A stretch of DNA of 64,000 nt from Polynucleobacter necessarius (GTDB taxonomy: Bacteria; Pseudomonadota; Gammaproteobacteria; Burkholderiales; Burkholderiaceae), in the NCBI GenBank assembly GCA_900095165.1, contig LT606947.1, positions 930,001 to 994,000 on the forward strand, in the 5' to 3' direction. A program made the position numbers and the translations under genes. The stretch's first letter is position 1, and the number at the start of each line of letters is the position of its first letter. The notes beneath the pieces are model-generated. The model was not told the origin of the DNA. It made no database searches and saw only the letters and a list, made by a program, of their open reading frames with translations. Below are positions 4,689 to 58,805 of this stretch, piece by piece.

Positions 4689-5987
4689 ATGCTATATCAG
4701 TTACATGAATTTCAAAAAGCTTTACTTCAACCGGTAAGCTCATGGGCTCGAGCAGCATCTGAGGTATTTATTAATGCTTCCAATCCCGCATCAAAGGTTC
4801 CAGGTTCGGATCGCTTAGCTGCTAGCTATGAGCTTTTATACCGCCTAAGTAAAAACTATAAGAAACCCGAGTTTGGTATTCGCGCTGTACAAGCGCATGG
4901 TCGCGAAATAGCGATTCATGAGAGAACCATCATAGCTAAGCCATTTTGCAACCTCATTCGTTTCAAGCGCTTCTCCGATGATCTTGATGTCATCAAGAAG
5001 CTGAAAGATGATCCAGCAGTCTTAGTCGTTGCACCACTATCTGGACACCACTCCACTTTGTTGCGTGACACTGTGCGCACACTATTGCAAGACCACAAGG
5101 TTTACATTACTGATTGGATCGATGCACGTATTGTTCCAGTCGATGCAGGTGATTTTGGTCTTGATGATTACGCTCACTATGTTCAAGATTTCATCCGCGC
5201 GATTGGTGCAGAAAACTTACATGTGATCTCCGTCTGCCAACCAACCGTTCCTACATTAGGCGCAATCTCCTTAATGGCCTCTGCCGGAGAAAAAACACCG
5301 GCCTCCATGATCATGATGGGCGGCCCAATTGATGCACGCAAATCTCCAACTGCTGTTAATAATTTAGCCGATCAAAAGTCTTATGATTGGTTTGAAAGCC
5401 ATGTAATTTACAAAGTACCGCCAAGTTACCCAGGTGCTGGCCGTAAGGTGTATCCAGGTTTCTTGCAACACACTGGTTTTATTGCAATGAACCCCCAGAA
5501 CCACTTGCAGTCACACTAGGATTATTTCCAAAACTTAGTACGTGGCGATGAGCAGGATGCCGAAGCCCACATTCGTTTCTATGATGAGTACAACGCTGTT
5601 CTGGATATGGATGCGAAGTTTTACTTAGACACCATTAAGACCGTCTTCCAAGACTACTCATTACCAAATGGCACTTGGACAGTTGCAGGCGATCTAGTCA
5701 AGCCACAGGATATTAAGAAAACCGCCATTCTTACTGTTGAAGGTGAGTTGGACGACATCTCTGGTAGTGGACAAACTCGCTCAGCACATGCATTGTGTGC
5801 AGGCATTCCTAAGGCCGATAAAGACCATTACGAAGTTGCTGGCGCTAGTCACTATGGCATCTTCTCTGGCCGTCGTTGGCGTGAGAAGGTGTACCCAAAA
5901 ATTAAATCGTTTATTCGTGAGCACCAAGGTGTTCAGAAAAAAACAAAGGTCAGACCCCCAAAGCTGGGCTCTAAGAAAGCTGTATAA
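4689..5987 (+). pseudogene. phaZ: Intracellular poly(3-hydroxybutyrate) depolymerase, interrupted by an in-frame TAG
   Basis: The reading frame is colinear with the PhaZ1 family over 432 codons, but codon 277 (5517-5519) is TAG. The catalytic triad known for the Ralstonia eutropha enzyme is at identical numbers: Cys183 (SVCQPTVP) before the stop, Asp355 (EGELDD) and His388 (ASHYGIF) after it. There is therefore no other insertion or deletion. Flanking residues are HLQSH before and DYFQNLVRGD after; I expect Lys or Gln at this place. Without readthrough the product lacks two of three catalytic residues. A good ribosome site (AGGAGG) precedes the ATG. The role would be mobilising stored PHB in the cytoplasm. 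Confidence 0.88.
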
Positions 5988-6041
5988 ACCAGCGGCGCAA
6001 CTTTCAGGTCGCGCTTCTAGCTTTAGGGCGCCTTAATTGCA

Positions 6042-6734
6042 ATGAATATCAGACAGACGAAAGAACTTGCTAATCGTCTCGAGGATATTCTTCCTCAAAC
6101 CCAATGCACCAAATGCAGCTACCCAGACTGCAGAGCCTATGCAGAAGCAATGGCAATGGGTGAGGCCTTACCCAATCGCTGCCCTCCTGGTGACGTAGAG
6201 GGCATTCAAAGACTCAGCGCTATCCTTGCCCTCATCTTCCCCCAGGATACTTTTGAACTGCACCCGCAGATTGATTCTGAATGCGGTATGGAACGTCCCA
6301 GGCCGCTAGCATTTATAGACCCTAAGACTTGCATTGGCTGCACCTTATGCATTCAGGCGTGTCCTGTAGACGCGATTGTGGGAGCCTCAAAACAAATGCA
6401 CGTGGTCTTGAGTAATTGGTGCACGGGTTGCGATCTGTGCATACCGCCCTGCCCTGTAGATTGCATCACCATGATTGATGTGACGGATGAGAAAACCGGC
6501 TGGGATGCTTGGTCACCAGAATTGGCAAAACTTGCACGCTCACGATATGAAACGCGTGATGCCCGACTGGATCGTGAACAGCGCGACAATGATGAGCGGC
6601 TAGCAAAGAAAGCCGCTGCCAAATTAGCAATAGTCAATGCAGAGAGCCTAGATTCTGAAGCGGCTTCAAAAGAACAGGAACGAAAGCGCACCATCATCGC
6701 TGCTGTCATTGCGAGAGCCCAGCAAAAGAAATGA
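6042..6734 (+). CDS. rsxB: RsxB/RnfB-like iron-sulfur electron transfer protein
   Basis: Ferredoxin-like subunit of the Rnf/Rsx type. An N-terminal 4Fe-4S motif (CTKCSYPDC, with a later Cys in NRCPPG) is followed by two bacterial ferredoxin clusters, CIGCTLCIQACP and CTGCDLCIPPCP. A charged Ala/Lys-rich tail completes 230 residues. The N-terminal membrane anchor of classical RnfB is missing, so the protein looks soluble. The stop overlaps the nth start (ATGATGA), so the two are translationally coupled. In E. coli nth also ends the rsx operon, but no rsxA, C, D, G or E is present here, so the electron partner is unknown. Confidence 0.88.
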   Translation: MNIRQTKELANRLEDILPQTQCTKCSYPDCRAYAEAMAMGEALPNRCPPGDVEGIQRLSAILALIFPQDTFELHPQIDSECGMERPRPLAFIDPKTCIGCTLCIQACPVDAIVGASKQMHVVLSNWCTGCDLCIPPCPVDCITMIDVTDEKTGWDAWSPELAKLARSRYETRDARLDREQRDNDERLAKKAAAKLAIVNAESLDSEAASKEQERKRTIIAAVIARAQQKK

Positions 6735-7390
6735 TGAATCTCGAAAAGCGCCAAGCCTTCTTTGAGTTGCTCCGGGAAAATAATCCCCACCCAGAAACAG
6801 AACTGGAATACAGCTCCCCATTTGAATTACTCATTGCTGTTTTGCTATCTGCACAAGCCACTGACATTTCAGTGAATAAAGGTACACGCAAGCTATTTAA
6901 GATTGCCAATACGCCTCAAGCACTGTTGGATCTAGGTGAGGAAGGCGTTAAGCCCTTCATTCAGCACATTGGTTTATTCAATTCCAAAGGTAGGCATATC
7001 CAAGAAACCTGTCGGCTACTCCTTGAAAAACATGGCGGCGAAGTTCCGCAAAACAGGGTGGAACTAGAGGCACTGCCAGGCGTTGGCAGAAAGACTGCAA
7101 ACGTCATTCTCAACACGGCTTTTGGCCAACCCACCATGGCTGTTGACACCCATATCTTTAGGGTCTCAAACCGAACAGGCTTAGCGCCTGGCAAGGATGC
7201 TGTAAATGTAGAAGAGCAATTACTGAAGCGCGTTCCAAAAGAGTTTTTAATGGATGCTCACCATTGGCTTATTCTGCATGGTAGATATACCTGCAAGGCT
7301 CGTAACCCTGATTGCGAACAATGTATTGTTGAACCACTCTGTGGCTTTAAGCAAAAAACTGGCAAAGGAAAAGTTCGTGACAATATTTAA
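6731..7390 (+). CDS. nth: Endonuclease III (DNA glycosylase/AP lyase)
   Basis: Base-excision repair enzyme that removes oxidised pyrimidines. The helix-hairpin-helix LPGVGRKTANVIL holds the catalytic Lys121, and Asp139 follows in AVDTHIFRV. The 4Fe-4S loop C-x6-C-x2-C-x5-C (CKARNPDCEQCIVEPLC) is complete. Length is 219 residues. Two adjacent ATGs (6731 and 6734) overlap the rsxB stop. Its 3' end overlaps the DUF1841 gene by 14 bases, so rsxB, nth and DUF1841 look like one operon. Confidence 0.95.
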   Translation: MMNLEKRQAFFELLRENNPHPETELEYSSPFELLIAVLLSAQATDISVNKGTRKLFKIANTPQALLDLGEEGVKPFIQHIGLFNSKGRHIQETCRLLLEKHGGEVPQNRVELEALPGVGRKTANVILNTAFGQPTMAVDTHIFRVSNRTGLAPGKDAVNVEEQLLKRVPKEFLMDAHHWLILHGRYTCKARNPDCEQCIVEPLCGFKQKTGKGKVRDNI

Positions 7391-7808
7391 TCCCACTCGC
7401 GAAGAAGTGCGTCGCTTTTTCTGTGACACCTGGAAGAAGAAAACCGAGAACCATATTCTGACGCCAATGGAAATCATTGCTAGCGACTGGATGGTTGAGC
7501 ACCCGGAATATCATCCACTCCTATCGGATCCAGAAGGCGCAGCGGCACAAGACTACACACCAGAACGCGGCGAGACCAACCCCTTCCTTCATTTGTCAAT
7601 GCATCTCTCGATTAGCGAGCAAATCTCCATCGATCAACCGCCTGGCATTAAAGAGATCGCAGATACGTTATCGCAGAAGACGGGCTCAATGCATGAATCT
7701 CAGCATTTGATGATGGAATGCTTAGGGCAAGTGATGTGGGATGCGCAGCGTCAAGGGCAACCATTGCAACCAGACAAATATCTTGAAGCCTTGAAGAAGT
7801 TGGTTTAG
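7377..7808 (+). CDS. DUF1841 family protein
   Basis: 143 residues with the DUF1841 pattern: an N-terminal FNPTREEVRRFFCDTW, MTPMEIIASDWM-like helices, a middle LHLSMHLSISEQISIDQP and a C-terminal HLMMECLGQVMWDAQRQG. The function is unknown; the family is common in beta- and gammaproteobacteria. I chose the GTG at 7377 because an AGGAAAAG ribosome site precedes it and the family begins with this FNP segment. The frame is open further upstream but that part lies inside nth. The TAG stop overlaps the convergent HIT gene by four bases. Confidence 0.85.
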   Translation: MTIFNPTREEVRRFFCDTWKKKTENHILTPMEIIASDWMVEHPEYHPLLSDPEGAAAQDYTPERGETNPFLHLSMHLSISEQISIDQPPGIKEIADTLSQKTGSMHESQHLMMECLGQVMWDAQRQGQPLQPDKYLEALKKLV

Positions 7809-8245
7809 CAAAGCCCAGCTATTGCAGACTTAATCGCTGACGGCAACTCTTGGGCCATTTTTCTTCTTGCTTCTAAATTTGCCGCGGGAGTTTTCTGAAT
7901 TTTTTGAGACCAGGCCGACCCCGGAAAGAAAGCATCATCTTGATATCTAGGGATCACATGCCAATGGATATGAGGAACCATATTACCCAGCGCCGCAATA
8001 TTGATCTTGTCTGGGTGCATCACATGACGCACGGCCTCCTCCACCGCAAATACCAGCGACATAACGTGTTCGTGCTCGCCATGGCTCAGATCAGTCATTT
8101 CAGCAACATGACGATTCCAGATCACGCGGCAAAAACCAGGAAGATCGGGATCATTTACGAGGATGACACGGCAGTCATCGCCGCGCCAAATCAACTGCCC
8201 CTCTTCAGGCCTGAGCTCTTCTTTACAGAGTACGCAATTAGTCAT
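7805..8245 (-). CDS. HIT family nucleotide hydrolase
   Basis: Small cytoplasmic hydrolase of the histidine triad superfamily. The triad HIHWHVIPR is around residues 92-100, and an N-terminal CxxC (CVLCKEEL) is seen in many of these proteins. The family acts on AMP-linked or dinucleoside polyphosphate substrates; the substrate cannot be read from the sequence. Length is 146 residues. It is convergent with and overlaps the DUF1841 gene by four bases, and stands downstream of aceA on the same strand. Confidence 0.88.
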   Translation of the reverse strand: MTNCVLCKEELRPEEGQLIWRGDDCRVILVNDPDLPGFCRVIWNRHVAEMTDLSHGEHEHVMSLVFAVEEAVRHVMHPDKINIAALGNMVPHIHWHVIPRYQDDAFFPGSAWSQKIQKTPAANLEARRKMAQELPSAIKSAIAGLC

Positions 8246-8359
8246 GGGAAGAATGTATACGAAAACGGCATCTAAGTCACCCTTGTGGGGTAATTTAGAT
8301 GCCGGTACAGTAAGGACAGATTTTTACTATGCTGCTACTACGCACTACTTAGGGATTTC

Positions 8360-9649
8360 TTAGTGGAACTGCTCTTCTTCTGTAGAACCAGTCAACGCTA
8401 TTACTGAAGACTTACCACCTTGAATCACGGTAGTTACGTCATCGAAATAACCAGTACCAACTTCTTGCTGATGCGATACGAATGTGTAACCACGATCACG
8501 CGCAGCGAATTCTGGTTCTTGTACTTTCTCGATGTAAGCAGTCATACCGCGCTGCATGTAGTCTTGAGCCAAGTCGAACATGTTGTACCACATGGAGTGA
8601 ATACCAGCCAATATGATGAACTGATACTTGTAGCCCATTGCACCTAATTCGCGTTGGAACTTCGCAATAGTTGCGTCGTCCAAGTTTTTCTTCCAGTTGA
8701 AAGATGGTGAGCAGTTGTAAGCCAACATCTTGCCTGGGAACTTCGCACGAATTGCTTCAGCGAACTGACGAGCAAACTCGAGGTCAGGTGTACCAGTTTC
8801 ACACCAAACCATATCAGCGTATGCCAAACCACGGGAGATCGCTTGATCCAAGCCCTTACGTGTTTTGTAGGAGCCTTCAGCAGTACGCTCGCCTGTCAAG
8901 AATGGCTTGTCGTTTGCATCATAGTCAGATGTCAACAAATCAGCAGCCTCAGCATCAGTACGAGCCAAGATGATGGTTGGAACGCCCATAACGTCAGCAG
9001 CTAAACGTGCAGAGATCAATTTCTGAACAGATTCAGTAGTTGGCAACAATACCTTACCACCCAAGTGACCGCACTTCTTAACAGAAGAGAGTTGATCTTC
9101 GAAGTGAACACCAGCGGCGCCCTGCTTGATCAATGCCTTGCTTAATTCGAATGCATTCAATACGCCACCGAAACCAGCTTCAGCATCAGCAACGATTGGA
9201 GCAAAATACTCGATATAACCAGCGTCACCTTTGTTGATACCTTTGGCTGTTTGAATTTCATCGGCACGTTGGAATGAGTTGTTAATGCGCTCAACCATCT
9301 TAGGAACTGAGTCAACTGGATACAAAGATTGGTCCGGATACATTGCTGCGTATGAGTTATCGTCAGCCGCAACCTACCAACCTGACAAGTAAATAGCTTG
9401 AACGCCAGCTTTAACCTGTTGCATTGCCTGGCCACCAGTCAAAGCACCTAAACAGTTAACGTAAGCTTCGTTATTAACCAAGTCCCAGAGACGCTCTGCG
9501 CCATGCTTAGCTAATGTGTGCTCAATCTTCAATGAGCCGCGGAAACGAATGACGTCTTCAGCTGTGTAGCCACGTGTAATACCCTTCCAGCGCTGATTGG
9601 TATCCCAGTCTTTTTGTAATGCTGCGATTTCTGCTTTGCGATCTGCCAT
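8360..9649 (-). pseudogene. aceA: Isocitrate lyase, interrupted by an in-frame TAG
   Basis: The frame covers 429 codons of isocitrate lyase, the glyoxylate-shunt enzyme that splits isocitrate to succinate and glyoxylate. Codon 92 is TAG (9374-9376 on the plus strand). Residues 1-91 end with AIYLSGW, and after the stop the frame continues [14 protein letters not shown]; the family has Gln here (SGWQVAAD), so the change looks like CAG to TAG. The active-site segment KKCGHLGG (Cys193) and the rest of the barrel are intact. A restart at the ATG at 9343 would lack the N-terminal domain, so normal activity needs readthrough. An AGGGAGAAA ribosome site precedes the ATG. Confidence 0.92.
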
Positions 9650-9697
9650 GTTTTTCTCCCTAAGTTAAACAAGTACTTCAAGTATTTGAACATTCAA

Positions 9698-9718
9698 GTC
9701 TTATGTCTTATGTCTTAT
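9698..9718. repeat. Three tandem copies of a 7-base unit upstream of aceA
   Basis: GTCTTAT occurs three times without interruption, about 50-70 bases upstream of the aceA ATG in an AT-rich region. The whole 9650-9924 interval holds no gene that I can see and should contain the aceA promoter on the minus strand. Confidence 0.7.
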
Positions 9719-9894
9719 ATAAGAGTTTAAGGATCCAGGAAAAGCATGCAAGCATTATTTCAATATTTATTGAAAATAATTAGTTCAATTAATTCAAAGG
9801 TTTAAATAGAGTATTTTACAATATGAAATAAACATCCAAAGGGCGAAAACACCCCCAACTTGAAATGTTGCACTGCATTTTATATATGGGAATG

Positions 9895-9915
9895 TCTTTT
9901 CATAATATGAAAAGA
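9895..9915. promoter_or_regulatory. Perfect 21-bp palindrome between the MFS gene and aceA
   Basis: TCTTTTCATA, one central A, TATGAAAAGA: a perfect 10+1+10 inverted repeat. It lies 10 bases beyond the MFS stop. On the minus strand no T run follows, so it is not a classical terminator. It could be an operator for aceA, about 245 bases upstream of that start, or an mRNA 3'-end stem. Confidence 0.4.
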
Positions 9916-9924
9916 GGAGCTTGC

Positions 9925-11163
9925 CTAGGGGGTTTTAGAGCTACTGATAGTGGCGACCTTGAATCCAGTCAAGATGATCATGAGTTGTAGAAGAGCTACG
10001 CCAATAAACAAAAGCTTTGGCAAGCCCACATCCAAGAAGATTCCAAAGATTAATGGGCTGAGAGCGGCGCCTAGATCGATGCCAGAATAGACGATGCCGT
10101 ACACCCTTTCCGATGAGCCTGATGGTGTCGCCGAGCGAATCATAAAATCACGTGATGGCGCAGCAATACCCAAGCCAAGTCCAATCACAATGAAGGCAAT
10201 CACAATCAATTCGACAGGCACTAAACCAGTAGCCAATAAAAGACCCATCACGATATTGATGGTAAAACAAATCATAATAATGTGCTCGGGCACTTTTAAC
10301 TTGGTAGCCAGATAACCACCCAACAGCATTCCTCCAGCACCACCCATAGACATGAGTGTCAGGTAGTAATTACCGGAACTCACGGCAATGTTATAGATCT
10401 TTAAAAGCGCGGTTGGAGCAAATGACTGCAGGCCGGTAGTTGCAGCCATGCTAAAGAAAAAGAAAATCCAGCAAAGCCATACAACCGGTAGCTTCAAAAA
10501 TCCAAAGGTGTTCATCGGTGCACCGCCGGGATTGCTTTGGGCATGACTAGCCTGTGACTCCTCACGTCTTGCATGAACGTCATCAATTAAGCGCACCCTA
10601 CTAATCCACAAGGTTAAAAAGATCAATACTTCAAGCACTGCAGCAGATAAAAAGGCAATACGCCAATCAGCGATAGTAGCCACAGCCACCATAAAGGCTG
10701 GCGCTGCCGCCCAACCGATATAGCCTGTTACCCCATGAATGGAGTAAGCATAGGGCAAATTAGGTGGTGAAATTTTGTGATTAATCAGCGTGTAATCCAC
10801 GGGATGGAAAATGCCGTTGCCACATCCCGCTATTACCGCACCCAAAACTAACATGGCATAGCCATTGCTTTGCGAATAAATGAGCGCAGCCAATGCAAGC
10901 AAGCCAAATCCAGCAAACAGCACGGGACGAGCGCCAATACGGTCCACCAAAAAACCAGATGCAGCCTGAATAATGCAGGAGACCACAAAGAAAATGGTCA
11001 TGAGCAGACCTAGTTCAGCATAGTTAAAGCCAAACTCCGCCTTCAGCCATGAGAACATGGGCGGCAGGATTAAATGAAAGAAATGGGAGCTGCCGTGAAC
11101 CAGGCTAATGAGACCAACAACCCGAACATCACTAGCGCGCCTACTTATCAGGGCGTCAGTCAT
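9925..11163 (-). CDS. Major facilitator superfamily transporter
   Basis: Inner-membrane secondary transporter with about twelve hydrophobic segments over 412 residues. The loop after the second helix region reads GFLVDRIGARPVLF, matching the MFS signature G-x3-D-R-x-G-R/A-R. A long cytoplasmic loop around residues 190-215 separates the two halves. The substrate is not recognisable. The start is the first ATG, ahead of MTDALISRRASDVR. The gene is intact, in contrast to its neighbour aceA. It lies downstream of clpB on the same strand with a 48-base gap. Confidence 0.85.
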   Translation of the reverse strand: MTDALISRRASDVRVVGLISLVHGSSHFFHLILPPMFSWLKAEFGFNYAELGLLMTIFFVVSCIIQAASGFLVDRIGARPVLFAGFGLLALAALIYSQSNGYAMLVLGAVIAGCGNGIFHPVDYTLINHKISPPNLPYAYSIHGVTGYIGWAAAPAFMVAVATIADWRIAFLSAAVLEVLIFLTLWISRVRLIDDVHARREESQASHAQSNPGGAPMNTFGFLKLPVVWLCWIFFFFSMAATTGLQSFAPTALLKIYNIAVSSGNYYLTLMSMGGAGGMLLGGYLATKLKVPEHIIMICFTINIVMGLLLATGLVPVELIVIAFIVIGLGLGIAAPSRDFMIRSATPSGSSERVYGIVYSGIDLGAALSPLIFGIFLDVGLPKLLFIGVALLQLMIILTGFKVATISSSKTP

Positions 11164-11211
11164 GTGCCGAGTTTACTGGTGCAGAGAAATTCCTGCTGAA
11201 ATAAAGCGGTA

Positions 11212-13806
11212 TTACTTACTAAAACTGAAATCGCCGTTCTTATCGACGCCCACAGGAACGGTGTCCTTAGGACCAAACTTGCCTTCCAAAATCATCTTGG
11301 ATACTGGGTTCTCGATATATTGCTGAATCGCACGCTTGAGCGGTCTAGCTCCAAATACAGGATCAAAGCCGACCTCTGCAATCTTGCTCAGAGCGGCATC
11401 ACTGACCTTCATTTGCATATTCACCTTTGCCAAACGATCTGACAAGTTCTTAAGCAAGATCTTCGCGATATTGGCGATATTGTCTTTATCCAAGCCTTGG
11501 AATACCACGATCTCATCAATACGATTAAGGAACTCAGGACGGAAATGATTCTTCAGCTCTTCAAACACCGCATCTTTGATTTCGGATTGCTTCTTATCCG
11601 TCATGCACTGGATGAGATGCGAGCCGATATTGCTGGTCATCACGATCACTGTATTCTTAAAGCCCACAGTACGACCTTGACCATCGGTTAGGCGGCCATC
11701 GTCTAAGACCTGCAAGAGTACGTTAAAGACATCTGGGTGTGCTTTTTCAATCTCATCAAACAAGATAACGCTATACGGATGGCGACGTACTTGTTCGGTT
11801 AAGTAACCACCCTCTTCGTAACCTACATAGCCTGGAGGCGCACCGATTAAACGAGCTACGCTGTGCTTCTCCATGAACTCACTCATGTCGATACGAATGA
11901 GGTGATCCTCACTATCGAATAAGAAACCAGCCAAGGCTTTGCAAAGCTCAGTCTTACCGACACCTGTAGGCCCTAAGAATAAGAATGAGCCATACGGACG
12001 ATTCTCTTCGGCAAGTCCAGCACGGGAGCGACGAATAGCATCCGATACCGCACGAATAGCTTCCTCTTGGCCAACTACGCGCTTATGCAGCAATTCCTCC
12101 ATCTTCAATAGCTTATCGCGCTCACCCTGCATCATCTTCGATACCGGAATACCAGTTGCTCGAGAGACTACCTCTGCAATCTCTTCTGCGCCCACCTGGG
12201 TGCGCAAGAGCTTGTTCTTCACTACGCCATCTTTATCACACTTTGCTTCAGCAGCGGCGGCAGATTTGAGCTTAGCCTCAAGCTCAGGCAACTTACCGTA
12301 CTGCAACTCGGCAACTTGCTCCAACTTACCGTCGCGCTGTAGCTTAGCAATATCAGCACGAACTTTTTCAATTTCTTCTTTGAGATGAGCAGCGCCCAAT
12401 ACGGCACCCTTTTCCGCTTTCCAGATTTCTTCTAGGTCGGCATACTCAGCACCAAGACGCTTGATCTCCTCTTCAATGAGGCTAAGACGTTTTTGTGATG
12501 CCTCATCCTTTTCTTTCTTAACAGCTTCACGCTCAATCTTGAGCTGAATAAGGCGACGCTCCAACTTATCCATCACTTCAGGCTTGGAATCGATCTCCAT
12601 CCGAATGCGTGAACCAGCCTCATCAATTAAGTCAATCGCCTTATCCGGCAAGAAGCGATCTGTAATGTAACGATGAGATAACTCTGCCGCTGCCACAATG
12701 GCAGGATCAGTAATCTCTATACCATGGTGAAGCTCATAACGCTCTTGCAAACCACGCAAAATGGCAATAGTTGCCTCTACGCTAGGCTCTTCCACCATGA
12801 CTTTTTGGAAGCGACGCTCAAGTGCAGGATCTTTCTCAATGTACTTGCGGTACTCATCTAAGGTCGTTGCACCGATGCAATGCAATTCACCACGCGCTAA
12901 GGCTGGCTTGAGCATATTGCCGGCATCCATTGCGCCATCGCCTTTACCGGCACCAACCATCGTATGGATCTCATCAATAAAGATGATGGTCTGACCTTCG
13001 TCTTTCGCTACATCGCTCAGAACAGCCTTTAGACGTTCTTCGAATTCACCGCGGTACTTGGCACCCGCTAATAACAAGGCCATATCCAATACAAGGACAC
13101 GTTTGTTCTTGAGGGTTTCAGGAACTTCATCATTAATAATGCGTTGAGCTAAACCCTCGACGATGGCGGTCTTACCAACACCCGGCTCACCAATGAGTAC
13201 TGGGTTATTTTTTCCGCGACGCTGCAAGATCTGAATGGTGCGACGAATTTCATCGTCGCGACCAATGACAGGATCAAGCTTGCCCATGCGAGCACGCTCA
13301 GTTAAATCGACGGTGTATTTCTTTAAGGCCTCACGTTGACCTTCAGCATCTGCACTATTCACTGATTCTCCTCCGCGCACTAAATCAATAGCCGCCTCTA
13401 ACGATTTACGATTTAAGCCATTCTCACGAGCAACCCTGCCCAGCTCGCCTTTATCATCTGCTACTACCAGCAAGAAAAGCTCGCCAGCAATAAACTGATC
13501 ATTGCGCTTATTGGCCTCTTTTTCACATAAGTTGAGCCAGTTGCTTAAATCGCGACCAACCTGAACCTCACCGCTAGTACCTTGCACTTCTGGGAGATTG
13601 CTAATTAGCTTCTCGGCTGCCTTCTCAAGGCCGGGTACGTTAACGCCAGCGCGGGTTAATAAACTCTTGGCACCACCATCGGAGTCGCACAACATCGCTA
13701 AGAGCAAGTGAGCAGGCTCGATATATTGATTGTCTTTTGCCAAAGCAAGGCTTTGCGCCTCGCTGAGCGCCTCTTGAAACTTCGTAGTTAATTTATCTAT
13801 TCTCAT
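11212..13806 (-). CDS. clpB: ATP-dependent disaggregase ClpB
   Basis: Hexameric AAA+ chaperone that dissolves protein aggregates with DnaK. It shows a Clp N-domain with two repeats (residues 1-145), a first ATPase with Walker A GEPGVGKT and [10 protein letters not shown], a long coiled-coil M domain (about 400-525) rich in Glu/Lys, a second ATPase with GPTGVGKT and [13 protein letters not shown], and the pore loop [12 protein letters not shown]. Length is 864 residues, standard for ClpB. It is intact. No clear heat-shock promoter was identified in the 65 bases upstream. Confidence 0.97.
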
Positions 13807-13871
13807 TTTTTAAGCCCTATCTACTACAGCTATTTTTCACACATATCTATCTATAGAATATAGGGGCATTC

Positions 13872-14166
13872 TTGATAACTTCAAGTCTGTTGGACCTCTT
13901 TTTAAGCGAATTTATCCCTATTTTGACCTGGCTTGTTTACCTCCTAGAATGTTCTGATGGCAGCTATTATGCTGGTATTACAAACCACCTAGAACATCGC
14001 TTGGCAGCCCATAATTCAGGGGATGGTGCTCGGTATACGAGAGCGCGCAGAACCTGTTACCCTCTTGGCCACGCAAGAGCACCTAGATCGATCTGAGGCC
14101 TCCAAGGCGGAGGCTAGATTGAAGAAATTACCTAGATCTGAAAAGTTGGGCTTTTTTAATGCCTAA
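13872..14166 (+). pseudogene. GIY-YIG nuclease family protein, frameshifted
   Basis: Residues [20 protein letters not shown] and [21 protein letters not shown] form the start of a YhbQ/UPF0213-type GIY-YIG domain. After codon AGA (14049-14051) the frame diverges and soon stops at TGA. If one A at about 14051-14052 is skipped, the next frame reads [30 protein letters not shown] and KLGFFNA to the TAA at 14164-14166, which is exactly the family's C-terminal half. A single inserted base therefore breaks the gene. The true start may be a TTG at 13923 (MTWLVYLLE). The family's role is uncertain, possibly a small structure-specific nuclease. Confidence 0.85.
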
Positions 14167-14214
14167 AAGATGGGTTTAATCTTCGCAGGATCTCAGGCAT
14201 CGCGATCCCAATGA

Positions 14215-14643
14215 TTAGTCCAAACAGGATCTAAGCTCAGAGATAAGCCTTTTAAACTGCTCGGCCCTTAAAAACTGACCGATCTGCACGCTTTGATCAG
14301 CCTCCTCGATTAAAAAAACTTTTTCAGTTTCTTGTGGCGAGGAAATCCTAGCCCAGCGAGTATTAAATTCAAGAACAGTCTCTTTGTAGGCGATAAATTT
14401 CCTCACAATTAAGCGGGTTCCACTAATTTCAATTTCCTCAAAATCCAAAGCATGTCGACAGTAAATCAAAAAACCCGCGGTGACAGCAGTCAACTCAATT
14501 GCTGTAAAGATGAGAATAATTTTTACGCCAGCCAATAGAAAACCAGTGGCAACGGTTAATGAAAGACAAACTAGGGCGATATAGAGCTTGAGCAACTGAC
14601 CTGGGGTCAGCGCGCAATTTTGCCTCATCTTCCAGGTTTTCAT
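14215..14643 (-). CDS. DUF2244 family membrane protein
   Basis: 142 residues: a short basic N-terminus, two adjacent hydrophobic helices (around LYIALVCLSLTVATGFLLAG and IILIFTAIELTAVTAGFLIY), then a soluble C-terminal beta-rich part with FEEIEISGTRLIV and a TRWARI segment. This layout fits DUF2244, an inner-membrane family without a defined function that is often near respiratory genes. I chose the ATG at 14643 because it overlaps the TGA of the upstream Cys-rich gene (ATGA), which signals coupling. The frame stays open farther upstream, but that part is antisense-like and overlaps the neighbour. Confidence 0.75.
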   Translation of the reverse strand: MKTWKMRQNCALTPGQLLKLYIALVCLSLTVATGFLLAGVKIILIFTAIELTAVTAGFLIYCRHALDFEEIEISGTRLIVRKFIAYKETVLEFNTRWARISSPQETEKVFLIEEADQSVQIGQFLRAEQFKRLISELRSCLD

Positions 14644-14816
14644 TCTGGACAATTTTTTTCGGGATTGGGTATTGAGTTCGAAGAATTGCCACCCACAGGG
14701 ATCAGGGGTGGCGCGCTCATTTTCTCGCCATCCCATACTTGGCCACACCAACACTCCCCTGTTTCATTGATGATGCAAACACCTGAGCCACAGCAACGTT
14801 TATCTGGCGCCTTCAT
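14640..14816 (-). CDS. Small cysteine-rich protein, unknown function
   Basis: 58 residues beginning MKAPDKRCCGSGVC. Cysteines are clustered: CCGSGVC, then ECWCGQVWDG, and one near the C-terminus. The ECWC segment resembles the small Cys_rich_CWC family, which suggests metal binding, but I cannot confirm membership. The Ser/Pro/Asn-rich tail looks disordered. It is coupled by an ATGA overlap to the DUF2244 gene. An in-frame ATG at 14840 would add eight residues. Confidence 0.6.
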   Translation of the reverse strand: MKAPDKRCCGSGVCIINETGECWCGQVWDGEKMSAPPLIPVGGNSSNSIPNPEKNCPE

Positions 14817-14908
14817 GATTAACCTATTCGTTCTAGACAATTCATAATGAAGCCTATTCTATGGTTTTTATCTTAATTGCGCCCACACCCCGCCTAGAGT
14901 TACCCAGC

Positions 14909-15519
14909 ATGCAAAACTCCTTATTCAAGCAATTCAACTCATCTGATCCAATATGCGCACTGGAAAGAGATGGTCGGGCTGAATATTTCAATTATTTTTA
15001 TGATGCGGATGAATCAGATCATCTTTATAAAAGCTTGCTGAACCCTCTCCCCTGGGAGTCGGATGAGCTCAAGATGTTTGGCAGGTTAGTAAGGACCGCA
15101 AGAAAAGTTGTCTGGGTGGGTGATCCAGAGTGCGCATATACCTACTCTGAAGTTCAAAAAAAGCCTCAGGCCTGGACCAATGACTTATTCAAAATGAAGC
15201 ATAAGCTTGAACAATTAACTGGCCATACCTATAACTCTTGCTTGCTCAATCTATATCATAGCGGCACTGAAGGTATGGGCTGGCACAGTGACGATGAGAA
15301 AGAGCTGGATCCCACAACTCCCATTGCCTCAGTCAGCTTAGGCGCTCAACGTAAATTTGCATTCCGCCATAAGCAAGATAAAACGACTAGCTCTTTATGA
15401 ATGGCAGTCTACTGATCATGCATCCGCCGATTCAAAAACATTGGTATCACAGCCTTCTCAAAACAAAAACTGTTACAGGTCCACGCATCAATCTCACTTT
15501 TCGGAAAATATTTCCCTGA
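14909..15519 (+). pseudogene. AlkB-like 2-oxoglutarate/Fe(II) dioxygenase, frameshifted
   Basis: AlkB-type enzymes remove alkyl groups from DNA bases by oxidation. The first frame carries LLNPLPWESDE, YNSCLLNLYHSGTEGMGWHS with the iron ligands H-x-D (WHSDD), and ASVSLGAQRKFAFRHKQDK, then stops at TGA 15398-15400. From the overlapping ATG at 15397 the next frame reads MNGSLLIMHPPIQKHWYHSL and then VTGPRINLTFRKIFP to the TGA at 15517-15519. That contains the distal iron His (KHWYH) and the 2-oxoglutarate Arg (R-x5-R). One missing A in CTTTATG explains the shift. The first frame is also open upstream to an ATG at 14861. Both halves are needed for an active site, so the gene is probably dead. Confidence 0.88.
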
Positions 15520-15584
15520 ATGTGAGAGGACTTGGCTATAGCGTCTTGAACTAGTCTTTAGATTAAAAAGGGGTGAGCGCTAAA

Positions 15585-16043
15585 TTATTTCCAACGCGCC
15601 ATTGCAGCATCGTCCGTCACACGGGCATCAACCCACTTACCACCATCTGGGGTCTCTTCCTTCTTCCAAAATGGCGCCGCAGTTTTGAGGTAATCCATGA
15701 TGAACTCACAAGCAGTGAATGCCTCTCCTCGGTGAGCACTAGTAACCGCGACTAGGACAATTTGATCTTCTGGCAGAAGCGGGCCCACTCGATGGATCAC
15801 TAGAGTCTTGTAAAGATCCCAGCGGCCTCTAGCTTGTTGGATGATTTACTCTAGGGATTTTTCTGTCATACCAGGGTAGTGCTCAAGCGTCATACCCTTA
15901 ACTTGACTGCCATCATTCATATCTCGGACGGTACCCACAAAATTTACTATCGCACCAACACGAGGATCATCCTTGCGTAACGCCTTTACTTCAGCAGTGA
16001 GATCAAAGTCTTGCTCTTGAATGCGGATGAAATCGCTCTGCAT
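15585..16043 (-). pseudogene. moaE: Molybdopterin synthase large subunit MoaE, interrupted by TAA
   Basis: MoaE with MoaD converts precursor Z to molybdopterin. The frame runs from the ATG at 16043 (MQSDFIRIQEQDF) through FVGTVRDMNDG and GMTLEHYPGMTEKSLE to a TAA at 15846-15848. It then continues in the same frame with IIQQARGRWDLYKTLVIHRV and the catalytic Lys region APFWKKEE. Glu is expected at the stop (GAA to TAA). Nothing else is wrong over 152 codons. The truncated product lacks the active-site lysines. The start is one base after the moaD stop. Confidence 0.9.
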
Positions 16044-16044
16044 C

Positions 16045-16302
16045 TTAGCCGCCAGTAACCGGGGGAAAGAATGCGACCTCAGCACCCTCTACTAGCGCAG
16101 TGGAATCGGCCACCATCTCTTGATTTATGGCGCAACGGATCACCTTAGTGCTAGCCAATACTTCGGCCCAAGGATTTCCTCGCTGAGCAAGGTAGCCTCT
16201 TAAGTCAGCAATGGTTTTTACTTCTGGTGGCGTAGTGATGCTCTCACCAGAAAGTCCAAGGCCTTCTCTTAAGGAGGCAAAGAATCGTAATTCGAGTTTC
16301 AT
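16045..16302 (-). CDS. moaD: Molybdopterin synthase sulfur carrier subunit MoaD
   Basis: Ubiquitin-like sulfur carrier of 85 residues that ends with the obligatory Gly-Gly (FFPPVTGG), the site of thiocarboxylation. The N-terminus MKLELRFFASLREGLGLSGE is typical. The gene is intact although both its partner moaE and the downstream-pathway gene moeA in the same operon are broken. It may therefore be a relic that has not yet decayed. It lies 18 bases after moeA in the minus-strand series. Confidence 0.9.
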   Translation of the reverse strand: MKLELRFFASLREGLGLSGESITTPPEVKTIADLRGYLAQRGNPWAEVLASTKVIRCAINQEMVADSTALVEGAEVAFFPPVTGG

Positions 16303-16320
16303 AAGGGAATCGTAATACGA

Positions 16321-17563
16321 TTAGGCGAGGAGCGCGTTAAATGGAATGTACTTCACCAGCTCACCTGCTTTAAAAGTATGTCCTGGGGGGCAATCCAGCA
16401 AACCATCACCCCATGAAGCGCTTGTAAGCACCCCGGAGCTTTGATTGGGGAATAAATCTAAGCCACCCTGCGCATTGATCTTGACGCGCAAAAATTCATT
16501 ACGACGATCCCCTTTAAGCCAATCAAAGTCAGCACGCATTGGGTAAGACTGAGGTGCGCCCGCATCTCGCCCCTGCAACCTCAGAATGAATGGTCGCACA
16601 AATAATAGGAAGGTTACAAAACTCGATATTGGGTTACCGGGTAGTCCAATAAACCAGGTTTCTCCATCCTGATTCTCACTTGACTTGCGCACAGCACCAA
16701 AAGCCAAAGGCTTACCAGGCTTAATAGCAATCTGCCAGAGATCCAACCGACCCTCAGCTGTCACTGCAGGTTTGATGTGATCCTCTTCACCAACTGAGAC
16801 GCCACCAGAAGTAATGATCAGATCATGATCCTTGCTCGCCTTACGCAGGGTTTCCTTGGTTGACTCAAGACTATCGGGAACGATTCCAAAATCTGTGGCA
16901 TCACATCCCAGGGACTTAATACAGGCTAACAAAGTGTCGCGATTCGAGTTGTAGATACCGCCCGGCTTGAGTGGCTCACCCGGCAGAGAAAGTTCCGTCA
17001 CCAGTGAAAAAGGCAGCAACCCTGACTTTACGTTTTACATTCAAGTGCGTTAAGCCAGCAGATGCTGCAACGCCTAACTCTTGTGGCCGCAAAAAAGTAC
17101 TGGCAGTTAGGGCAACTTTGCCGGCAGTCAAATCCTCACCTCTTCGACGAATCCATTGACCTGATGTTGGTGCAATATTGACCTGCACTTGATCGCTTGA
17201 CCCCTCTGGAATGGCGCAGTCTTCTTGCATCACAACAGCATCAGCACCAGGAGGAACTGGAGCCCCCGTGAAGATTCTGGCGGCAGTGCCTGGCTCTAAC
17301 TGTGTACCCATCGAGCCCGCCGGAATACGTTGTACAATCTTGAGGGTACATCCAGGACTTTGGGTGTCCGCAGTGCGCACCGCAAAACCATCCATTGAGG
17401 TGTTATCAAGCGGAGGCACATCTACCAAGCTGTTAACGTTTTCCGCAAGCACACGGCCGAGCGCAGCCTGCATAGCAACCGCCTCACTCTCACCTACAGA
17501 TTTTGCATTTGACAGCAGATGGTCTAAAGCCTGCTGAGCAGTCAACATCGGAGGCTTGGTCAT
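16321..17563 (-). pseudogene. moeA: Molybdopterin molybdenumtransferase MoeA, frameshifted
   Basis: MoeA inserts molybdate into adenylated molybdopterin. The first frame (MTKPPMLTAQQALDHLLSNA..., DNTSMDGFAVR, FTGAPVPPGADAVVMQED) reads correctly to FFTGD at codon 189, then becomes nonsense and stops. The second frame resumes at once with ELSLPGEPLKPGGIYNSNRD and then ITSGGVSVGEEDHIK, IKPGKPLAFG and GLPGNPISS to the end. One extra C on the plus strand at 16995-16996 (G on the coding strand) explains it. Domains I-II are separated from the catalytic domain III, so function should be lost. Confidence 0.92.
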
Positions 17564-21676: not shown

Positions 21677-22054
21677 GTGAAGCTTCAATCTGACCCCCAT
21701 TCCGGAGCCAATACGATCACCGGTTACGGCGATGGCTACATCGAGATCAATAAGATCCCCTATAGTCACGCGGTTTTATTGAGTTCCGACGGTGAAATCC
21801 TCGAATGGGCCAGAAAGTCCTTTGATGATCTGAGTCCAGCAGATTTCACTCAAATGGCCTCCCTTAAACCTGAATTAATCATTATTGGTACCGGTAAACG
21901 CCAGCGCTTTCCAAAACCTGAGTTATTAAAGACCCTCATAGAAGCCAAGGTTGGATTTGAGGTAATGGATTCTCAAGCAGCTTGTCGCACCTATAACATT
22001 CTTGTCGGCGAAGGTCGCCAGGTTCTACTCGCCCTTATTGTGGAAGCCGCCTAA
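21677..22054 (+). CDS. Mth938/DUF498 domain protein
   Basis: 125-residue cytoplasmic protein of the DUF498 (Mth938-like) family, whose role in bacteria is not defined. The fold's features visible here are ITGYGDGYIEINKIPYSHAV, PELIIIGTGKRQRFP and a C-terminal FEVMDSQAACRTYNILVGEG. It starts with GTG; an ATG two bases earlier runs straight into TGA. The TAA overlaps the arnT ATG by one base (TAATG), so arnT translation is probably coupled to it. Confidence 0.85.
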   Translation: MKLQSDPHSGANTITGYGDGYIEINKIPYSHAVLLSSDGEILEWARKSFDDLSPADFTQMASLKPELIIIGTGKRQRFPKPELLKTLIEAKVGFEVMDSQAACRTYNILVGEGRQVLLALIVEAA

Positions 22055-29531: not shown

Positions 29532-29567
29532 AAACCGTCAATGCAATTCGCTTGACGGTTTTTTCTT
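29532..29567 (+). terminator. Terminator-like hairpin directly before the phoH ribosome site
   Basis: AAACCGTCAA and TTGACGGTTT form a perfect 10-bp stem with a 10-base loop, followed by a T-rich run. The phoH ribosome site AGGAG begins only three bases after the T run. It may end a short transcript from the bcp-phoH gap or act as an attenuator of phoH. Confidence 0.75.
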
Positions 29568-29581
29568 TTAGGAGAGTCTGC

Positions 29582-31256
29582 ATGCCATTACCCCCAATCC
29601 CAACTCAAATTGCTGGCCAAGTAAAAATTAGCAGTAAGAACACTCCAAACTTAAAGAAACGTCCTGCGCCAGCAAAAACCGTTGTGATGGAAAGCCATGC
29701 GCCAGATTGGGCAACAGATGCTGAAGAGGATCTCTCTGCCGCTGGAAGTAGCGCTTGAGAAAATTAAAGGCGATCGCAGGCCGGCAGCGGCCCGTAGTGA
29801 GCGCAGCGATAACAAAGCAGTAATCGTTCCAGAAAAACCAAAGCGCATCATTAGAACTGGCTCTCCAAGTCTATTTGTCTTAGATACCAACGTATTGATG
29901 CATGATCCAAGCTCGCTATTCCGCTTCTCTGAACACGACCTTTTCCTCCAAATGACCACTCTTGAGGAGTTGGATAACCATAAGAAAGGAATGACAGAGG
30001 TTGCTCGCAATGCTCGTACCGTCAGCCGTTCTTTAGATCAATTGGTTGCAGGTACTAGCGGCACATTAGATGAAGGTATTCCACTCAACAAGTTAGGCAA
30101 TCAGGATGTCTCTGGTCGACTCTTTTTCCAAACCAAACTTACTACCCAGGCATTGCCTGAGGGATTACCTGAAGGTAAATGTGACAACCTCATCTTGGCG
30201 GTTGTTAGTGAGCTACAAAAGACCCGTAAAGGCCAAGAGGTGGTATTGGTATCCAAAGATATCAATATGCGCATTAAGACGCGCGCCTTAGGATTGCCTG
30301 CTGAAGATTACTTCAACGACCAGATCTTAGAAGATCGTGACCTGATGTATTCCGGTGTCATGTCATTGCCCGCAGACTTTTGGCCTAAGCATGGTAAAGA
30401 TATGGAAAGCTGGGCTGATGGTAAATCTGGAACGATGTTCTATCGCGTAACCGGCCCTTCAGTTGCGAGCATGCTGGTAAATGAATTTGTCTACCAAGAA
30501 AATCCGGATGGCTCTACGCCTTTCTACGCGCAAGTCAAAGAAATTAATGACAAGACTGCCCTCCTTCAAACCTTGAGAGACTTTTCTCATCAGAAAAATA
30601 ATGTGTGGAGTGTAACTGCGCGCAATCGTGAGCAAAACTTCGCCATGAACTTACTCATGAACCCAGATGTGGATTTCATCACGCTATTGGGTCAAGCGGG
30701 TACTGGTAAAACCTTGCTGGCCTTAGCTGCCGGCTTAGAACAAGTGCTCGATAGTAAGCGCTATAACGAAATCATTATTACCCGCGCCACAGTTCCTGTT
30801 GGTGAAGATATCGGCTTCTTACCAGGCACTGAAGAAGAGAAAATGCAGCCTTGGATGGGTGCGTTTGACGACAACCTTGAGATATTGCAACGCAATGAGG
30901 ATGGCGCCGGCGAATGGGGTCGTGCCGCCACTCAGGAGCTGATTCGCTCACGCATCAAAGTGAAGAGCATGAACTTCATGCGTGGCAGAACCTTTGTGAG
31001 CAAGTTTGTGATTATTGATGAGGCGCAAAACTTAACGCCCAAACAAATGAAGACGTTAGTCACTCGTGCAGGTCCAGGAACTAAGATTGTTTGTTTAGGT
31101 AATATTGCCCAAATCGATACGCCCTACTTAACTGAAGGCTCTTCAGGTCTTACTTATGTGGTTGATCGCTTCAAAGGCTGGCGTCATGGTGGGCATGTGA
31201 CACTTGCCAGTGGCGAGCGTTCACGTCTTGCGGATCATGCTGCTGACGCACTCTAA
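29582..31256 (+). CDS. PhoH family protein with PIN domain; probable N-terminal frameshift
   Basis: Cytoplasmic PIN nuclease domain fused to a PhoH ATPase. The PIN part has LFVLDTNVLMHDPSSLFRF and TLEELDNHKKG. The ATPase has LLGQAGTGKTLLALAAG, TRATVPVGEDIGFLPG and VIIDEAQNLTPKQMK. A strong ribosome site precedes the ATG at 29582 (MPLPPIPTQIAGQVKISS), but that frame stops at 29756-29758. The long frame with all domains opens at 29697 in another phase and has no ribosome site. I infer one inserted base between about 29697 and 29756, in a variable linker. Translation from 29697 (519 residues) could still give both domains. Confidence 0.75.
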
Positions 31257-58225: not shown

Positions 58226-58805
58226 TCAATTTTTCTTCATATTTTTCAATATGTTAAAGGGATTTTGGGGCTTTTCAGAGGCATCTGAAGCTTCCCCTCC
58301 CTCCCCGAATGAAGAGGCATGTTGTTTGCAAGTGCCCTCTGGATGCTTTGGAATTAAGGGCATAGACAGGAGAATTTCGTCCTCAATTAGCCCCAAAAGG
58401 TCAAAGTGCTGACTTGCTACCAATGGCTCTTGTTGGTCATCCTCCATTGGGAAGGCATCTGCCGCCTCCTCAGAGGCCACCATGATAAATCGACTTTCTT
58501 GAGCTAAATCTAGGCCACAGTCCTGCAAGCAACTTTGACAAACCAGGTGAATCCAGCCTTTTACGGCTAATTCCAGGATTTTCTGGGGCTCGGAACCCGG
58601 AGAATCGGCAAAATGAGTCTTTACTTGCCAATGGAAGCCATCACCTGACTCGATGCTGGAGGCCTCCTCAGCTACCCTCGGTAGGGCTGAAATCTCCAAA
58701 AAACCAGCCCCTTGATAGGACTGGGGGGGCGTAAAAATCGATCCGTCCCAAAGCCTTGGGATCAGTGGATAGCTCAACTTGAGGTAAAATTTGATTACGA
58801 TTCAT
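58226..58805 (-). pseudogene. yceD: YceD/DUF177 protein with probable frameshift in a C7 tract
   Basis: The YceD/DUF177 family is linked to 23S rRNA accumulation and sits before rpmF. The main frame has ISALPRVAEEASS, the Cys pair LVCQSCLQDCG and the C-terminal LGLIEDEILLSMPLIP, but its only start is a TTG at 58777 preceding unfamiliar residues. An ATG at 58805 opens another frame that reads MNRNQILPQVELSTDPKALG then RIDFYAPP, and meets the main frame at a run of seven C (plus-strand G run at about 58722-58728). One C too many would explain it. If the TTG is real the gene is intact with 183 residues. Only Cys positions and context support the family. Confidence 0.6.

Follow-up and report, generated by a model that had tools for sequence, protein, structure and literature searches.

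Early gene decay in a Polynucleobacter genome, within a 13-kb interval and beyond it

Broken genes in the interval 4689–17563

The stretch of DNA analyzed here, referred to as the window, is 64,000 nucleotides in length and represents positions 930001–994000 of the single-contig genome of Polynucleobacter necessarius (labelled G000; 1,893,413 bases). Six genes in its interval 4689–17563, namely phaZ, aceA, a GIY-YIG protein gene, alkB, moaE and moeA, were confirmed to be broken by lesions without counterpart in close undecayed relatives (Table 1). In each case the frame is cut inside the domain, and these genes are likely to have lost their function. A sequence-only reading of the window had proposed exactly one stop or one-base indel for each of the six. 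Alignment of the open reading frames (ORFs) of relatives with the window upheld this for all but alkB, which was found to carry a frameshift with a net seven bases missing. The alkB gap was split by the aligner, with a TAG also read there, against three of four references (a fifth reference had no alkB ORF), and more than one change may have occurred at this site.

Lesions in the window were identified by tblastn of ORFs conserved among the corresponding regions of ten relatives, together with nucleotide alignment of the genes of G008. The closest named relatives of G000 include the Polynucleobacter strains 31A-FELB, 80A-SIGWE, 78F-HAINBA and MG-27-Goln-C1. The genomes used as undecayed references were G076, G065, G105 and others, their free-living status being judged from their whole genes; the undecayed strains around G000 in the phylogenetic tree described below are presumably free-living isolates.

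Table 1. Broken, frameshifted and selected intact genes of the window (window coordinates; lesions relative to close relatives).
Feature	Position	Strand	Evidence
phaZ (polyhydroxybutyrate (PHB) depolymerase), pseudogene	4689..5987	+	In-frame TAG at 5517, TGG in relatives; Pfam PHB_depo_C on intact G076 ortholog
aceA (isocitrate lyase), pseudogene	8360..9649	-	TAG at 9376, CAG/CAA in relatives; Pfam ICL on G076 ortholog
clpB (presumed name), intact gene inside the interval	11212..13806	-
GIY-YIG protein, pseudogene	13872..14160	+	One extra base at ~14052; Pfam GIY-YIG on G076 ortholog
alkB (AlkB-like 2OG-Fe(II) oxygenase), pseudogene	14861..15520	+	Net loss of 7 bases near 15397-15400; Pfam 2OG-FeII_Oxy_2 on G076 ortholog
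moaE (molybdopterin synthase large subunit), pseudogene	15585..16085	-	TAA at 15848, GAA/GTA in relatives; Pfam MoaE on G076 ortholog
moaD (presumed name), intact between two broken molybdenum-cofactor genes	16045..16302	-
moeA (molybdenum cofactor insertion), pseudogene	16321..17563	-	One extra base at ~16996; Pfam MoeA domains on G076 ortholog
phoH/PIN gene, N-terminal frameshift	29552..31256	+	One extra base at ~29744; 519-aa ORF (29697-31256) covers both domains
yceD, N-terminal frameshift	58226..58805	-	C7 versus C6 in three relatives, near 58725-58735; 183-aa ORF (58226-58777) covers domain

Distribution of broken genes over the genome

Beyond the window, twenty 20-kb stretches of G000 were sampled, giving with the window 464 kb of the 1.89 Mb, and these were queried with the genes of the colinear relative G076. 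The stretch adjoining the window was merged with it; of the 20 merged pieces, 15 held assessable genes and five held none. From 296 matched loci 270 were kept, with those at stretch ends (17), without a coding signature (3) or below 74% identity (6) being left out, although at least two of the six low-identity loci (112260 and 922648) looked broken. Broken calls were made for 41 of the 270 assessable genes, or approximately 15%. One of these, at position 1016642 of the genome, was later removed as its reference gene was flagged in the control too, leaving 40 of 269, and weak calls remain among them (e.g., a 100-aa ORF at 1202322). In G065, the undecayed control, the same caller flagged only 4 of 165, with gene sets that differ between the two genomes. 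In the region of the window it flagged 2/60 genes in G105, 1/63 in G008 and 2/53 in G058, but 9/64 in G108. Variable genes, differences in start site or a mis-paired paralogue would seem to account for the control calls.

The interval 4689–17563 was the densest 13 kb sampled, with broken calls for 6 of its 14 genes, compared with 35 of 256 in the rest of the sample (Fisher p = 0.010). Such a density could be expected from a local mutation hot spot or gene conversion that damaged these 13 kb only. However, two other 13-kb stretches had 5 of 12 genes broken, broken genes occurred in 11 of the 15 pieces with assessable genes, and several genes between the lesions of the interval are whole (clpB, an MFS transporter, nth, rsxB and HIT). 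A hot spot is thus very improbable and was rejected. The cluster described from sequence alone does stand out within the sample, but the decay is genome-wide and not particular to this interval. Broken genes also lie next to each other more often than with shuffled labels (12 adjacent pairs observed versus 5.7, p = 0.006); adjacency was not significant when frameshift-only genes adjoining stop genes were tested alone (p = 0.08).

Broken orthologs elsewhere in the sample include panC, thiL, cysM, umuC, radC and genes for metal and drug efflux and fatty-acid catabolism. RsmB-like and RelA/SpoT-type genes, identified by best match below the curated cut-off, are also broken. The latter (G000:C1:480434-482466) is frameshifted at approximately codon 393 of 679, a lesion which might weaken the stringent response. 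The malate synthase gene (G000:C1:717672-718421, locus L198) is frameshifted as well, and with the lesion in aceA, encoding isocitrate lyase, both glyoxylate-shunt enzymes of G000 are broken.

Age of the decay

In the 40 broken genes 58 lesions were counted, comprising 25 stops and 33 frameshifts. Most genes (26) carry a single lesion, with 11 carrying two, two carrying three and one carrying four. A zero-truncated Poisson fit to these counts gave 0.80 lesions per unconstrained gene, at which approximately 45% of such genes would be expected to appear undamaged; by this estimate around 33 further genes of the sample would be cryptic pseudogenes. Similar Poisson reasoning has been applied to Serratia symbiotica (PMC3499248).

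The ratio of nonsynonymous to synonymous substitution rates (dN/dS) was determined against G076 and expressed relative to the control pair G065–G076, for the 127 genes that were common to both sets and intact in the control. The relative value was 1.24 for broken genes (95% interval 1.10–1.44, 14 genes) and 1.22 for intact genes (95% interval 1.14–1.31, 113 genes). In the whole sample, dN/dS in G000 was 0.050 for broken and 0.042 for intact genes (Mann–Whitney p = 0.03), while the same split of genes in the control pair gave 0.040 and 0.034. The whole G000 lineage is therefore slightly relaxed, and as the broken genes show no extra excess of dN/dS over the intact ones, the relaxation appears to be recent. 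The lesions probably arose after nearly all of the divergence from the relatives had accumulated. The very recent relaxation of selection claimed from the sequence alone, for which alignment and dN/dS had been proposed as checks, was accordingly supported when both were run.

Parallel decay in other Polynucleobacter lineages

Matches to aceA were found in 148 of the 151 genomes of the genus searched. Five genomes, all of them single-contig (G000, G108, G106, G017 and G103), carry the gene in interrupted or fragmented form, with the lesions at different places, and no stops were present in other full-length aceA sequences among the matches listed from these 151 genomes. Eight further genomes gave weak or no matches, and several matches were cut at contig ends. 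Malate synthase is broken by lesions in G000, G108, G106 and G017, those of the latter three differing from that of G000, with the lesions of G000, G108 and G106 lying within a few codons of codon 263; it was looked for in G103 and went undetected. The moeA gene is broken in four of the five decaying genomes, with partial matches in a few draft genomes. In a genome of 40 contigs (G084:C7:32635-33348) the moeA match begins only at residue 179, and the cause could be a frameshift, decay in a further strain or an artefact of the contigs. Both G000 and G108 retain whole MoaC and PhaC_N domains, and in G106, G017 and G103 these are damaged, partial or undetected, which suggests an order of decay stages.

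A tree of four genes and 59 rows was constructed by a quick method without bootstrap. The five decaying genomes fall apart in this tree, among undecayed strains. G000 groups with six others with full support in the Shimodaira–Hasegawa-like approximate likelihood ratio test (SH-aLRT 100) and is nested among undecayed strains as a separate lineage; G106 was placed with a support of 86 and G103 no finer than an 11-row group. Three of the four other decaying lineages have smaller genomes, of 1.55–1.70 Mb. It should also be noted that G108 (loci L167–L170), sister to GWA2_45_21 in the tree, is a second early decaying genome, with lesions in aceA and moaE and in what we take to be uvrB, moaD, alaA and a DUF1841-like gene.

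To compare lineages gene by gene, the genes of G008 were used as the basis, in which the interval holds 13 genes rather than the 14 of the G076-based sample. Nucleotide alignment produced many paired false shifts for the three distant decaying genomes, and tblastn calls were used for these instead. Three genes flagged in the controls were dropped, leaving 58. Of these 58 genes, 21 are broken or lost in one or more of the other decaying genomes, and all eight lesions of the window (the six of the interval and those in phoH and yceD) fall among them (p = 1e-4). Enrichment of the interval for broken genes was seen in all five decaying genomes (p from 0.0004 to 0.019). The GIY-YIG stop in G106 and G017 and the moaE stop in G106 are close to an end of the gene and could reflect differing starts or stops, and the failure to find alkB in G106, G017 and G103 may reflect its absence in their clade instead of decay.

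Nature of the lesions

Sequencing or assembly errors could also produce spurious stops and frameshifts in a genome that is in fact sound. In yceD the lesion consists of a C7/C6 run, the commonest indel is a one-base insertion, and of the 20 one-base indels 4 are located within runs of at least four, which make up 5.6% of positions. Against this, the other 16 are outside such runs (gap placement being approximate), 25 of the 58 lesions are nonsense changes, and 16 of the 20 single-base ones among these are transitions. Furthermore, the lesions of the window lie in genes that are also broken or lost in other decaying genomes (8/8; 5/6 at p = 0.007 in a strict count explained below), and broken genes adjoin each other more often than chance allows. 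The lesions of G000 are neither mostly one-base indels in long runs nor evenly spread over genes. Assembly error is disfavoured as their source and is considered quite unlikely, with yceD, lying in a C run, being the lesion we would doubt first.

Recoding of stop codons, by which the genes would still be read through, was likewise considered, with TAG being the commonest nonsense codon (12 of 25). It was rejected as exceedingly improbable, since all three stop codons as well as frameshifts are among the lesions and TAG terminates 25 of the 224 intact genes tallied.

Neighboring genes in the window

The sequence-only reading also listed probable frameshifts in phoH and yceD. Both are present in comparison with relatives, but they are N-terminal and the remaining ORFs span the domains, so that these genes may still be alive. 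Its statement that the core genes of the window are intact was correct, with clpB, thrC, hom, nth and uvrB found to be whole. The names of these genes, and of rsxB, HIT and moaD, are those that we presume from their sequences.

Further marks in G000 near 21982, 37395, 38276 and 59396 and a 69-aa ORF at 14658 were taken as start-site, alignment or variable-gene artefacts, being located at gene ends or shared with undecayed relatives. Between the GIY-YIG gene and alkB (14157–14909), G000 and G065 lack the greater part of a several-kb gene block; this block is present in G008, G076 and G058 and largely so in G105.

Probable erosion following host restriction

It is considered highly likely that these observations represent early genome erosion in a young Polynucleobacter lineage that was recently restricted to a host. 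The lineage would have moved to life most likely inside a ciliate, the host being inferred, where selection would have ceased on genes needed only outside it. These would include genes of the glyoxylate shunt and of the late molybdenum-cofactor steps, as well as those for the use of PHB, catabolism, accessory repair and the efflux of metals and drugs. Random base changes and short indels would then have accumulated in the released genes, so that most of the broken ones would by now carry a single lesion. The 13-kb interval would stand out because several dispensable genes are neighbors there. The raised share of disrupted genes relative to the control and the raised dN/dS in the remaining genes are both as expected under host restriction.

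Alternatively, a free-living strain may have lost genes for which it had no use, either in culture or in some stable habitat, with no host involved. In size the genome falls among its undecayed relatives, and the shunt, PHB and metal-efflux genes are presumably conditional. However, the broken orthologs of panC, thiL, cysM and the RelA/SpoT-type gene are ones that we would expect a free-living cell to need, and overlapping gene sets are broken in the four other lineages, three of them with the smaller genomes noted above. Loss in a free-living strain is thus regarded as unlikely, and erosion following host restriction is preferred.

A number of points weigh against this preferred explanation. 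Host residence for G000 is something we infer, endosymbiosis not being readable from sequence. At 1.89 Mb, the genome is not reduced in comparison with three relatives that are near single-contig (1.84, 1.91 and 2.05 Mb); genome shrinkage is a later sign of host restriction. One-base insertions outnumber deletions (13 versus 7), the usual bias in bacteria being toward deletions. The control rate of approximately 2% would explain about 6 of the 41 broken calls. A distant MoeA-like paralogue is present, and loss of moeA alone may therefore be tolerable. Finally, under the strict count, restricted to mid-gene lesions and without losses, the overlap between lineages falls to 5 of 6 lesions in 17 of 57 genes (p = 0.007), and the enrichment of the interval, at p = 0.00005 in G000 and 0.008 in G108, weakens to 0.06–0.07 in G106, G017 and G103.

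Absence of MutS and MutL

Searches for MutS and MutL domains were negative in each of nine Polynucleobacter genomes, both undecayed and decaying, and positive in 11 of 14 control genomes. A family-wide search for MutS was negative in all 11 members of the genus drawn and positive in 100 of 109 others. In the screen described in PMC5644125, both mutS and mutL were missing in all 20 genomes of the PnecC group, but P. rarus and P. cosmopolitanus, which lie outside this group, had the two genes. The free-living P. asymbioticus is reported there to be without either gene. A mutator arising in G000 alone was considered and is not needed, since the undecayed genomes also have no MutS or MutL domains. 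The absence of these proteins would raise the mutation supply before symbiosis. It is possible, though we hold it only tentatively and think it rather doubtful, that PnecC lost MutS and MutL while free-living, so that the mutation supply would already be raised at the outset of every new symbiosis and genes would break soon after host entry, in a repeatable order beginning with the glyoxylate shunt and the late molybdenum-cofactor steps. If true, the PnecC group would amount to a natural experiment, with replicates, on how genome erosion begins.

Comparison with known systems

It is uncommon for a very young symbiont to have close sisters that are free-living. G000 and at least one more genome (G108) have been caught early, with most broken genes carrying a single lesion, and the order of loss would be directly readable from them; together the five decaying lineages offer a test of the predictability of early gene loss.

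Symbiotic Polynucleobacter with many pseudogenes and several independent origins have already been described (PMC5018217, PMC11253213), and G000 is probably a further, early member of these, the process being known and not new. P. necessarius and the other Euplotes symbionts of the PnecC group, as covered there, share with G000 the genus and the many pseudogenes, and for the sequenced Polynucleobacter symbionts independent origins with drift as the main driver are given in review (PMC5018217, PMC11253213). G000 differs from the Euplotes symbionts in its unreduced genome size and in the early state of its decay, roughly 15% of the genes sampled being broken and most of these by a single lesion.

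Outside the genus, Sodalis pierantonius SOPE and strain HS (PMC3499248, PMC3914690) resemble G000 as a young symbiont with many pseudogenes, including predicted cryptic ones. In SOPE, as described there, almost half of the protein genes are broken and insertion sequences (IS) have expanded; the comparison with the lower share in the G000 sample concerns broken genes only. The Sodalis symbionts of Columbicola lice (PMC11137140) are similar in representing independent lineages with largely convergent gene loss. That system, according to the account given there, comprises 34 lineages with known hosts, whereas the Polynucleobacter comparison comprises five genomes and one window.

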